The position numbers and the translations under genes were made by a program. From IMG/VR virus record IMGVR_UViG_3300030106_004480, positions 1-32,347 of that record: a stretch of 32,347 bases of DNA; one strand, 5' to 3'. Below the pieces are notes generated by a model. It did no database searches, was not told where the DNA came from, and was given only the letters and a program-made list of their open reading frames with translations. Shown here piece after piece: positions 26,007 to 29,623 of this stretch. This DNA is from a virus. The stretch's first letter is position 1; each line of letters begins with the position of its first letter.

Positions 26007-26179
26007 CAGTTTTGCTCCGCTGTGAGGGTATCTTGCACTTCGTTGACCAGAAAATCGAATGAGGCGTTGAAGTGTTCTAGCGCCGCCTCGCGTTCACGGT
26101 GATGGAGTTCTGGATCGGTGGATTCGCTCCGTATGCGCTGTAGGGCAATCAGATTATCAAGGACTTGTTGTATTGTCAT
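26006..26179 (-). CDS. Small helical unknown protein, 57 residues
   Basis: ATG at 26179, TGA at 26006. The translation starts MTIQQVLDNLIALQRIRSES, continues ELHHREREAALEHFNASFDF and ends VNEVQDTLTAEQN. It is a single charged helical hairpin without cysteine or membrane segment. Its ATG overlaps the methyltransferase stop by 4 bases and its stop shares a base with the next ATG. Coupling on both sides supports translation. Function is unknown. Confidence 0.62.
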   Translation of the reverse strand: MTIQQVLDNLIALQRIRSESTDPELHHREREAALEHFNASFDFLVNEVQDTLTAEQN

Positions 26180-27234
26180 CCCATCACCGCCTTTATGAAC
26201 GCTTGCGCTTGCGGCGCGACGATAGCGTTACCGTAGCCGCGCAATCGTCCCACTCGGTTGGCAGCCCCATCAACCAACGGGAATGTGCTGGATTCAACTG
26301 GCCTCCATTTGTCATCTCGGCAGTAGAGCCAATCTGGATCTGCCCAGTAGCCGTTAGTCGGGCTGGGCCTGTCAGCCGCACTAGATTGGGTAGCTCTGCC
26401 ATCTTGCGCGGTTCTGCACCTGCACTGCCCCTCGCATCCGATTTGATTGGTGTCGGCCAGTGAGCTAACTGTGCTGTAGTCCCTGTTTTCATTAGTCCTG
26501 GCGTTCTTTTTCCCTCTTTTTTGTGCCGCTCCTTCCGTGCTATCACTGTTTCTATTTTCTCGCACGTTTCGGTTGCAGATGGAGTGGGCCAGTGAGCTAG
26601 TTTTGCTTGATCTGCCAGATTTATCCCAAACGTCTGCCCTATTGTCTTGCTCACCCTCACTGCGTTGCCGTCCTGTATTTCTACAGGTCGTGGCCCCCCC
26701 GTGCCGTCCGTTGTCCTCGTTGTTGACCCATGTGTTTTCGGCAACCCAGTACAGTCTTTGTCTTTGGTGCGGTGCGCCGACGCCACAAGCTGGGAATACG
26801 ACCATCCCTGCGGCGTAGTCTTCCTGCGCCAAGTCAGCTTGTACAAGGTCGAACCAAGATGTTCCACCTTTTCCTGCAACCTGCTCACCAAGGACTCTTG
26901 GAGGGCGGCACTTCGCGACCAGACGGAAGAGTTCGGGCCAGAGATGTCGCTCGTCTGCTGTGCCTTTTCTTCGCCCTGCTCCGCTGAACGGTTGACAGGG
27001 GCATGATCCTGTCCAGACCGGTGTATCGTCTGTGATCCCTGCCCGTCTGAGGGCGTATGACCAGACTCCGACCCCGGCGAAGAAGTGGCATTGGGTGTAT
27101 CCTTTGAGGTCATCTGGTTGGACTTCTGTAATTGATCTGTCATCTACGTCTCCTTGGGCAATATGTCCGTCGTTAATGAGCGCTTTAAGCCACTCCACAG
27201 CAAAAGGGTCAATCTCATTATAGTAAACACTCAT
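26176..27234 (-). CDS. DNA (cytosine-5) methyltransferase
   Basis: This 352-residue phage-type C5 methyltransferase adds a methyl group from SAM to cytosine in a short DNA site. Motifs are visible in order. The SAM-binding loop is FFAGVG (51-56). The catalytic motif is PCQPFS with Cys80. Motif VI is GEQVA (E117, in place of the usual ENV). Motif VIII is GAPHQRQRLYWVAE. After a long variable region (about 170-300, the target-recognition part) motif X is RLRGYGNAIVAPQAQAFI near the C-terminus. The ATG overlaps the upstream stop (ATGA). It may protect phage DNA from host restriction. No cognate endonuclease gene is adjacent. Confidence 0.92.
   Translation of the reverse strand: MSVYYNEIDPFAVEWLKALINDGHIAQGDVDDRSITEVQPDDLKGYTQCHFFAGVGVWSYALRRAGITDDTPVWTGSCPCQPFSGAGRRKGTADERHLWPELFRLVAKCRPPRVLGEQVAGKGGTSWFDLVQADLAQEDYAAGMVVFPACGVGAPHQRQRLYWVAENTWVNNEDNGRHGGATTCRNTGRQRSEGEQDNRADVWDKSGRSSKTSSLAHSICNRNVRENRNSDSTEGAAQKRGKKNARTNENRDYSTVSSLADTNQIGCEGQCRCRTAQDGRATQSSAADRPSPTNGYWADPDWLYCRDDKWRPVESSTFPLVDGAANRVGRLRGYGNAIVAPQAQAFIKAVMG
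26193..27143 (-). CDS. Long second-frame ORF inside the methyltransferase gene
   Basis: This 316-residue ORF lies entirely within the methyltransferase gene in another frame. The N-terminal 80 residues are Ser/Gln-rich. The rest has recognisable blocks: GSTLYKLTWRRKTTPQGWSYSQLVASAHRT, two LAHWPTP motifs, and a C-terminal LNPAHSRWLMGLPTEWDDCA. From memory, these blocks (LYKLTWK..., WPTP, NPAHSRWLMGLP.EWDDCA) recur as separately annotated proteins in many phages and prophages, which suggests a conserved overlapping gene and not chance. It may instead mark an ancestral methyltransferase-related frame. The product's role is unknown. I see no ribosome site strong enough to settle its start. Confidence 0.5.
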   Translation of the reverse strand: MTDQLQKSNQMTSKDTPNATSSPGSESGHTPSDGQGSQTIHRSGQDHAPVNRSAEQGEEKAQQTSDISGPNSSVWSRSAALQESLVSRLQEKVEHLGSTLYKLTWRRKTTPQGWSYSQLVASAHRTKDKDCTGLPKTHGSTTRTTDGTGGPRPVEIQDGNAVRVSKTIGQTFGINLADQAKLAHWPTPSATETCEKIETVIARKERHKKEGKRTPGLMKTGTTAQLAHWPTPIKSDARGSAGAEPRKMAELPNLVRLTGPARLTATGQIQIGSTAEMTNGGQLNPAHSRWLMGLPTEWDDCAATVTLSSRRKRKRS

Positions 27235-28589: not shown

Positions 28590-28733
28590 ATGAGCAAGTT
28601 TGATTTAGATGTGGATCTGATTTTTGGCGCCATTTTACTATCGCCATTTGTCGTCGGTTTAGTGCTAGCGTTTTGGGCCATATTTTTCAGAGAGTCGTTT
28701 CCAAGAGTTTTAATTTATGGGATGGGAGGCTAG
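28590..28733 (+). CDS. Small single-span membrane protein, 47 residues
   Basis: ATG at 28590, TAG at 28731-28733, with AAAGGGG about 8 bases upstream. A short acidic N-terminus (MSKFDLDVDL) precedes a strong hydrophobic segment, about residues 11-33 (IFGAILLSPFVVGLVLAFWAIFF). A basic tail follows (RESFPRVLIYGMGG). By the positive-inside rule, N-out/C-in is likely. Its last codons contain the ribosome site (GGGAGG) of the GP88-like gene, 2 bases downstream, so the two are probably co-expressed. No family is recognised; a toxin- or anchor-like small membrane protein is possible. Confidence 0.62.
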   Translation: MSKFDLDVDLIFGAILLSPFVVGLVLAFWAIFFRESFPRVLIYGMGG

Positions 28734-28735
28734 CA

Positions 28736-29623
28736 ATGGCTAAAGTAAATAGAGCGACGGCGCTAGAGATTGCAAGCGCCGCTGGCGCTGGCGATAGCGC
28801 AAAAGTAGTTGAGTTATTACAAGCGATACCCGGCGATAGTTCACAAGTTCACACGTGGGCATATCATGCACAGCGCCTAGCCGATTATATCCAAGGTGAC
28901 TATACCGGGAAAGCACCTTTTGCAATATGGAACATTGACGGAAATAGTAAGCTACCTTTTGCCAGTTTTAGCACCTTGCCCGGCGTAACGTGTCCCGGCG
29001 CCGGTGAATGTTGGTTCGGACGGAGCGGGGCCGGATCTGGGTATTGTTACACGCTCAAAGGTTGGCGTTATCCCGCGACGCTGTTTAGACAAGTACAGAA
29101 CACGCTATTACTTGCACACAATAGCGACGTGATAGCACAAGCGACGTATAAGCTCAAACAGAATACGACTTGCCGTTTATACGTCGACGGCGACTTTGAT
29201 AGCTTACGCACGTTAACCTTTTGGATGCTAGTACTACGGGAAAGGCCCGATTTACTGACGTACGGGTATAGCAAGTCCTGGAACCTGTTCCTTATGTTTG
29301 ACCGTATGTGGGCAAGTAAAGTAGGATGGCCGAAAAACTATCTTTTAAACTTGTCGAATGGTTCCAAGTTTGAGCATTTAAGGCCCAAAATGGAACAATT
29401 GCAAGTAGTGCGCGGAAATTTCCTGGCGCTACAAATAGACAAAAGGCTAGCCGGTAAATATGGTCACCCGGAATATAGGAAAGCGCTAAGAGACGCTGCC
29501 AAGGCGCTTGGATTGAAAAAGGTGTTTGTGTGTCCTGGCAAGTGTGGAACGTGTACGAAAGCCGGGCATTTATGCGGAATGGAAAGCGCTAAAGGTGTTA
29601 ACGTCGTAATAGGGGTTCACTAA
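28736..29623 (+). CDS. GP88-like cysteine-rich protein
   Basis: I chose the ATG at 28736 (295 residues), which has GGAGG 8 bases upstream, over an open TTG at 28673. The core reads PFASFSTLPGVTCPGAGECW, then SGYCYTLKGWRYPATLFRQVQNTLL, then CRLYVDGDFDSL, and the C-terminus ends VFVCPGKCGTCTKAGHLCG. Cysteines at 86, 92, 104, 146, 266, 270, 273 and 280 could bind metal or an Fe-S cluster. Order and motifs (a Cys block, CY, then an R-x-Y/H-x-x-GDF strand) resemble the family called gene product 88 from mycobacteriophages. Its biochemistry is not settled to my knowledge. A nucleic-acid role beside the iterons is inference. Confidence 0.6.
   Translation: MAKVNRATALEIASAAGAGDSAKVVELLQAIPGDSSQVHTWAYHAQRLADYIQGDYTGKAPFAIWNIDGNSKLPFASFSTLPGVTCPGAGECWFGRSGAGSGYCYTLKGWRYPATLFRQVQNTLLLAHNSDVIAQATYKLKQNTTCRLYVDGDFDSLRTLTFWMLVLRERPDLLTYGYSKSWNLFLMFDRMWASKVGWPKNYLLNLSNGSKFEHLRPKMEQLQVVRGNFLALQIDKRLAGKYGHPEYRKALRDAAKALGLKKVFVCPGKCGTCTKAGHLCGMESAKGVNVVIGVH

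Follow-up and report, generated by a model that had tools for sequence, protein, structure and literature searches.

M.EcoHK31I and, like it, M.EaeI are C5 cytosine methyltransferases composed of two polypeptides, and the small subunit of M.EcoHK31I is encoded inside the gene of the large one in another reading frame. In M.EcoHK31I the large subunit carries motifs I–VIII and X and the small subunit carries motif IX, and the predicted recognition domain was placed in the larger subunit; in M.AquI motifs I–VIII are found in one chain and motifs IX–X in the other (PMC3404938). No report of such a nested pair in phages was found in the literature searched, and the passages found in a Paenibacillus phage paper, in which two cytosine methyltransferases are listed, contain no discussion of nesting.

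Here we analyzed a pair of overlapping frames in the virus record IMGVR_UViG_3300030106_004480 of IMG/VR, the whole 32,347-nucleotide stretch of which is referred to as the window and also holds tail-fibre and integrase genes. Our preferred reading, to which we assign a probability of about 0.8, is that this locus encodes a two-subunit C5 methyltransferase, in which the outer frame (alpha) would provide motifs I–VIII and X and a nested frame (beta) would provide the recognition region and motif IX. As far as the descriptions can be compared, the partition of motifs would be the same as in M.EcoHK31I (motif IX of beta being identified by position and a short pattern), and in the window's family the small subunit is likewise nested in another frame. 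Unlike M.EcoHK31I, the pair is phage-borne and very widespread, motif II/III appears ahead of motif I in alpha of the window's group, and selection in the family points to the small subunit as the site of recognition, whereas the published recognition domain of M.EcoHK31I lies in the large one. The nested form differs from M.AquI in that motif X remains on alpha; the split-overlap loci described below share the M.AquI partition.

The outer and the nested frame

Alpha and its motifs are located at the following positions.
26176..27234, minus strand: alpha, C5 cytosine DNA methyltransferase, 352 amino acids (ORF call; Pfam, PHROG and M.HhaI fold)
26992..27000, minus strand: motif IV of alpha, PCQ, with the catalytic Cys (sequence; aligned to M.HhaI)
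26755..26778, minus strand: motif VIII of alpha, GAPHQRQR (sequence; aligned to M.HhaI)
26218..26232, minus strand: motif X of alpha, GNAIV (sequence; structural alignment)

Alpha matched the Pfam model PF00145 (DNA_methylase) at 2.7e-17 and was assigned to PHROG 363 (phrog_363) at 6.6e-80. The first-pass annotation had described a methyltransferase with catalytic and SAM motifs and a motif X, and indeed motifs I (FAGVGVW), IV (PCQ), VI (GEQV, not ENV), VIII (GAPHQRQR) and X (GNAIV) were all present. Motif IX was not found in the alpha frame, in which matches to the M.HhaI profile stop past motif VIII.

The nested frame and its features are as follows.
26193..27143, minus strand: beta, +1-frame nested protein of 316 amino acids, proposed target-recognition and motif IX subunit (ORF; PHROG; tblastn; selection)
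26580..26600, minus strand: LAHWPTP block 1 of beta (sequence)
26448..26468, minus strand: LAHWPTP block 2 of beta (sequence)
26250..26297, minus strand: LNPAHSRWLMGLPTEW of beta, proposed C5 methyltransferase motif IX (VIII–X position in one-chain relatives)

As had been noticed in the first pass, this 316-residue frame is wholly contained in the methyltransferase gene (26193–27143 inside 26176–27234, offset +1) and holds two LAHWPTP blocks, at beta residues 182–188 and 226–232. The overlap had been thought to cover mainly the variable region; it actually extends over nearly the whole methyltransferase gene. Beta carries LNPAHSRWLMGLPTEWDDCA 14 residues ahead of its end, and it matched phrog_1008 (2.4e-36) and PHROG 31772 and none of the Pfam or NCBIfam models. 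The two frames of the window thus belong to known families, PHROG 1008 and 31772 for the second frame and PHROG 363 for the methyltransferase, all of which are labelled DNA methyltransferase; the labels are silent on the overlap at one locus.

Retention of the nested frame

The database search of the 316-residue translation, proposed in the first pass, was carried out by tblastn: 225 phage records contained beta, 167 of which matched at least 80% of it, and alpha was found at a coverage of 80% or more in 193 phage records. Annotation of the pair varies among phages: both frames are annotated in K1ind2, PhiXhv-28 and Jacopo, alpha alone in EBPR podovirus 2, the second frame alone in PMG1, VLCpiM12a and ST20 (in a shortened version), and neither in SAP012. 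In all of 125 distinct viral or phage homologues of alpha (119 from two viral-contig scans, five annotated phage records and the window), the +1 open run covered 85–100% of alpha, and the control frame +2 had 9–28 stops in nearly all of them. One of the viral scans had been chosen via beta, and therefore bacterial genomes were scanned with N-terminal patterns of alpha only; in 77 of the 78 full-length bacterial alphas the frame was open across at least 75% of the alpha length.

We also permuted synonymous codons in the 125 homologues, where the mean +1 run was 321 codons compared to 155 after permutation, and the observed length was reached by none of 500 permutations in 60 homologues and by 5 or fewer in 105. 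The second frame could conceivably be free of stops merely as a result of codon bias and a conserved methyltransferase, an explanation with which the GC content of 0.52–0.67 and the window sequence alone (observed length reached in 7 of 500 permutations) agree, and against which the near-universal retention of the frame argues.

Selection in the two frames

Single-site differences in disjoint pairs of homologues (62 independent pairs) were classed by their effect in both frames, in an OLGenie-like count. The region where a recognition domain of alpha would be supposed is the following.
26359..26730, minus strand: alpha residues 169–292, near-neutral and predicted disordered in alpha, constrained in beta (selection; pLDDT)

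At residues 169–292 strong purifying selection acts on the nested frame, and the methyltransferase frame looks near-neutral (62 pairs; beta omega: SN/SS = 0.17, NN/NS = 0.09; alpha omega: NS/SS = 1.32, NN/SN = 0.68), and methyltransferase codon position 1 was the most variable and position 3 the least. Bootstrap confidence intervals for alpha in the variable region (38 pairs: NS/SS 0.72–1.87, NN/SN 0.46–0.96) indicate that alpha is near-neutral there, rather than proven to be wholly neutral. Upstream of the beta start the beta frame was unconstrained (SN/SS = 1.53, NN/NS = 1.51, 62 pairs), residues 32–105 showed weak beta-frame constraint, and both frames were constrained at residues 106–168 (beta 0.37/0.18, alpha 0.19/0.09) and at residues 293–346; constraint on the second frame spans approximately methyltransferase residues 106 to 330. 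This pattern held in the subsets of 85–98.5% and 72–85% identity, and two other nested groups, each with few pairs, showed the same direction, alpha being somewhat more constrained there.

The first-pass annotation regarded both frames as real, and named free second-frame stops in homologues, with matches that are mere shadows lacking purifying selection, as the outcome that would speak against it. We looked for this outcome and observed the opposite: single differences introducing a beta-frame stop numbered 0 in methyltransferase residues 106–292 and 38 in the 31 codons before beta, and omega was around 0.1. Retention in homologues and purifying selection in beta, along with constraint on alpha elsewhere in the gene, bear out that both frames are real and, judged by these sequence comparisons, the nested 316-codon frame is a real gene. 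In the variable region it is the methyltransferase that is near-neutral and the second frame that is conserved, so the latter is not a by-product of the former; on the basis of codon permutation, the +2 control frame, dual-frame selection and the codon-position pattern at residues 169–292, we rejected codon bias as the origin of the open frame and regard it as extremely improbable.

Probable start site of beta

A putative ribosome binding site precedes the beta start codon.
27150..27155, minus strand: Shine-Dalgarno AAGGAG, 6 nt upstream of the beta ATG at 27143, within alpha (sequence; family-wide enrichment)

The codons of alpha that create these signals are strongly over-used across the family (AGG, which creates the Shine-Dalgarno sequence, at Arg33: 45/125 vs 27/843; GAT, which creates the start, at Asp37: 96/114 vs 300/933), and an ATG at these alpha sites together with an SD-like sequence was found in 86 of 125 homologues; these counts were drawn from related sequences, for which Fisher p-values overstate independence and are optimistic. 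Another way to express the second frame would be programmed +1 frameshifting from alpha instead of internal initiation, giving a fusion of motifs I–VIII, the recognition region and motif IX. One-chain relatives show such an order in one frame, and nested loci always use the +1 frame; however, constraint on the second frame sets in some 50 codons ahead of motif VIII, the Shine-Dalgarno sequence and start codon are enriched at alpha residues 31–37, and the fusion would lose motif X, so we consider frameshifting unlikely.

Structure prediction of alpha and beta

AlphaFold predicted for alpha (72-sequence alignment) a confident Rossmann domain at residues 1–175 and the motif X helix, and residues 177–301 had a pLDDT of 32–41, i.e. 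predicted disorder. By VIA, the model matched M.HhaI with Z = 14.3 and an rmsd of 4.0 over 185 residues, alpha residues 1–175 and approximately 340–352 corresponding to M.HhaI. Alpha has the motifs and the SAM-dependent Rossmann domain of a C5 methyltransferase; we conclude that it does not unite a recognition domain and motif IX with them in one chain, because M.HhaI matches end after motif VIII, residues 177–301 are predicted to be disordered and the region is near-neutral.

At the N-terminus of alpha (residues 3–58; 27061–27228, minus strand), a motif II/III-like stretch (YYNEIDPFAVEWL...GDVDDRSI) precedes motif I (FFAGVGVW) in the window's alpha family. Residue 1 of the alpha model corresponds to M.HhaI residue 34 by VIA, alpha 37–66 corresponds to HhaI 3–32 by HMMER, and hhalign of the alpha N-terminus against canonical-order relatives gave the same placement, weakly. 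This arrangement suggests that the Rossmann domain is locally permuted.

Beta modelled alone had a pLDDT of 59.8, of low confidence apart from one element.
26775..26924, minus strand: beta residues 74–123, helix and beta-hairpin, pLDDT mostly 82–92, under purifying selection (AlphaFold; selection)

This helix-hairpin, which the model extends to residue 125, had no clear match in the PDB, and the beta profile matched nothing among PDB chains up to an E-value of 10. Searches by Foldseek and VIA with the beta model returned weak, unrelated matches only, a low-confidence lone model saying little; by sequence or by this model, beta had no detectable likeness to canonical small domains.

One-chain, split and nested layouts in related phages

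Three layouts were found in related phages. They were counted by motif patterns, which overlook many loci, and near-duplicates are among the loci counted. In the one-chain layout, which has the canonical order (mycobacteriophage ShiLan gp70 and 13 viral loci), motifs I–VIII, PTP repeats, the IX block and motif X share one frame. In the split layout (21 loci), alpha ends about 20 codons past motif VIII and the repeats, the block and motif X are in the +1 frame. In the nested layout, that of the window's group, motif IX is in +1 and motif X is back in frame 0. The beta-like block of the one-chain relatives is xPAFSEWMMGWPAGW. By hhalign, the window's beta profile aligned with the VIII–X part of the fused proteins (probability 96.4, E = 1.2e-9), with split betas (E = 1.5e-18) and with Firmicutes-type nested betas (E = 1.6e-28); PTP-rich repeats could raise these scores, and the alignment spans the motif IX block too.

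Among individual loci, L251, L255, L259–L268 and similar ones have the mycobacteriophage-type split layout with repeats, motif IX and motif X of beta in +1 (AquI-like). In the one-chain loci L169, L234 and L239 a PTP-repeat stretch also lies upstream in the +1 frame, as if partly left behind, and in L253, a locus assigned to the class "separate", the recognition/IX/X part is found far downstream from alpha, in frame +2.

Beta might instead be a separate protein with another function, e.g. an inhibitor or accessory factor, the recognition domain being in alpha. The predicted placement of that domain in alpha of M.EcoHK31I (PMC3404938) and the extra N-terminal helix-hairpin of beta are compatible with this; on the other hand, the stretch of alpha that would have to perform recognition is near-neutral and predicted disordered, and beta aligns with the VIII–X segment of one-chain enzymes, which leaves this alternative improbable. 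Because of selection, the disorder prediction and the one-chain relatives, we favour the nested frame as the recognition part itself, with motif IX. The first-pass annotation had suggested that the second frame arose from, or shapes, sequence specificity; the relation to specificity stands, and its role is recast, since beta would itself be the recognition part.

A proposed two-subunit methyltransferase and its spread

According to the two-subunit reading, alpha would form the catalytic, SAM-binding domain with motifs I–VIII and X. Translation of beta would start at the internal ATG with its own Shine-Dalgarno sequence in the +1 frame, yielding the DNA-recognition (small) domain, i.e. the repeat-rich variable region and motif IX, in which specificity would reside. 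Between motifs VIII and X, alpha would be an out-of-frame translation of beta DNA, an unstructured spacer on which selection would act little. The two polypeptides would be expected to assemble into one active enzyme, which may serve in protecting phage DNA.

The nested layout fits an origin from a single-chain enzyme in which two mutually compensating frameshifts moved the recognition–IX segment by a single base; this origin is suggested by the layouts, with no direction of change between them implied. It is likely, though with less assurance than we attach to the two-subunit reading, that a C5 methyltransferase found in hundreds of phages and prophages has had its recognition half transferred to a nested frame, leaving a neutral, unstructured spacer of about 125 residues in the catalytic chain, and that the fused, split and nested forms record a stepwise relocation between frames. 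New here are the extent of spread, the placement of recognition by selection and the series of layouts.

The DNA sequences marked by these viruses are probably set by the nested gene, which is often unannotated or mislabelled, databases calling it methyltransferase, hypothetical protein or nothing. If so, for a large class of phage methyltransferases the nested frame is where target specificity should be read, the family would provide many natural examples of same-strand nested genes that share out constraint along a gene, and how a domain changes reading frame without losing function would become testable.

Genomic neighbourhood

No restriction enzyme was recognized adjoining the pair in the window, where the neighbours are annotated only in part, and in a check for a nested restriction-modification system no restriction gene was found in the annotated neighbourhoods of three plasmid matches (H153–H155). 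Elsewhere in the window, positions 28673–29623 (plus strand) encode another 316-amino acid protein, with a weak match to phrog_1392 (function unknown) and Cys-rich motifs (CPGAGECWFG and CPGKCGTCTKAGHLCGM).
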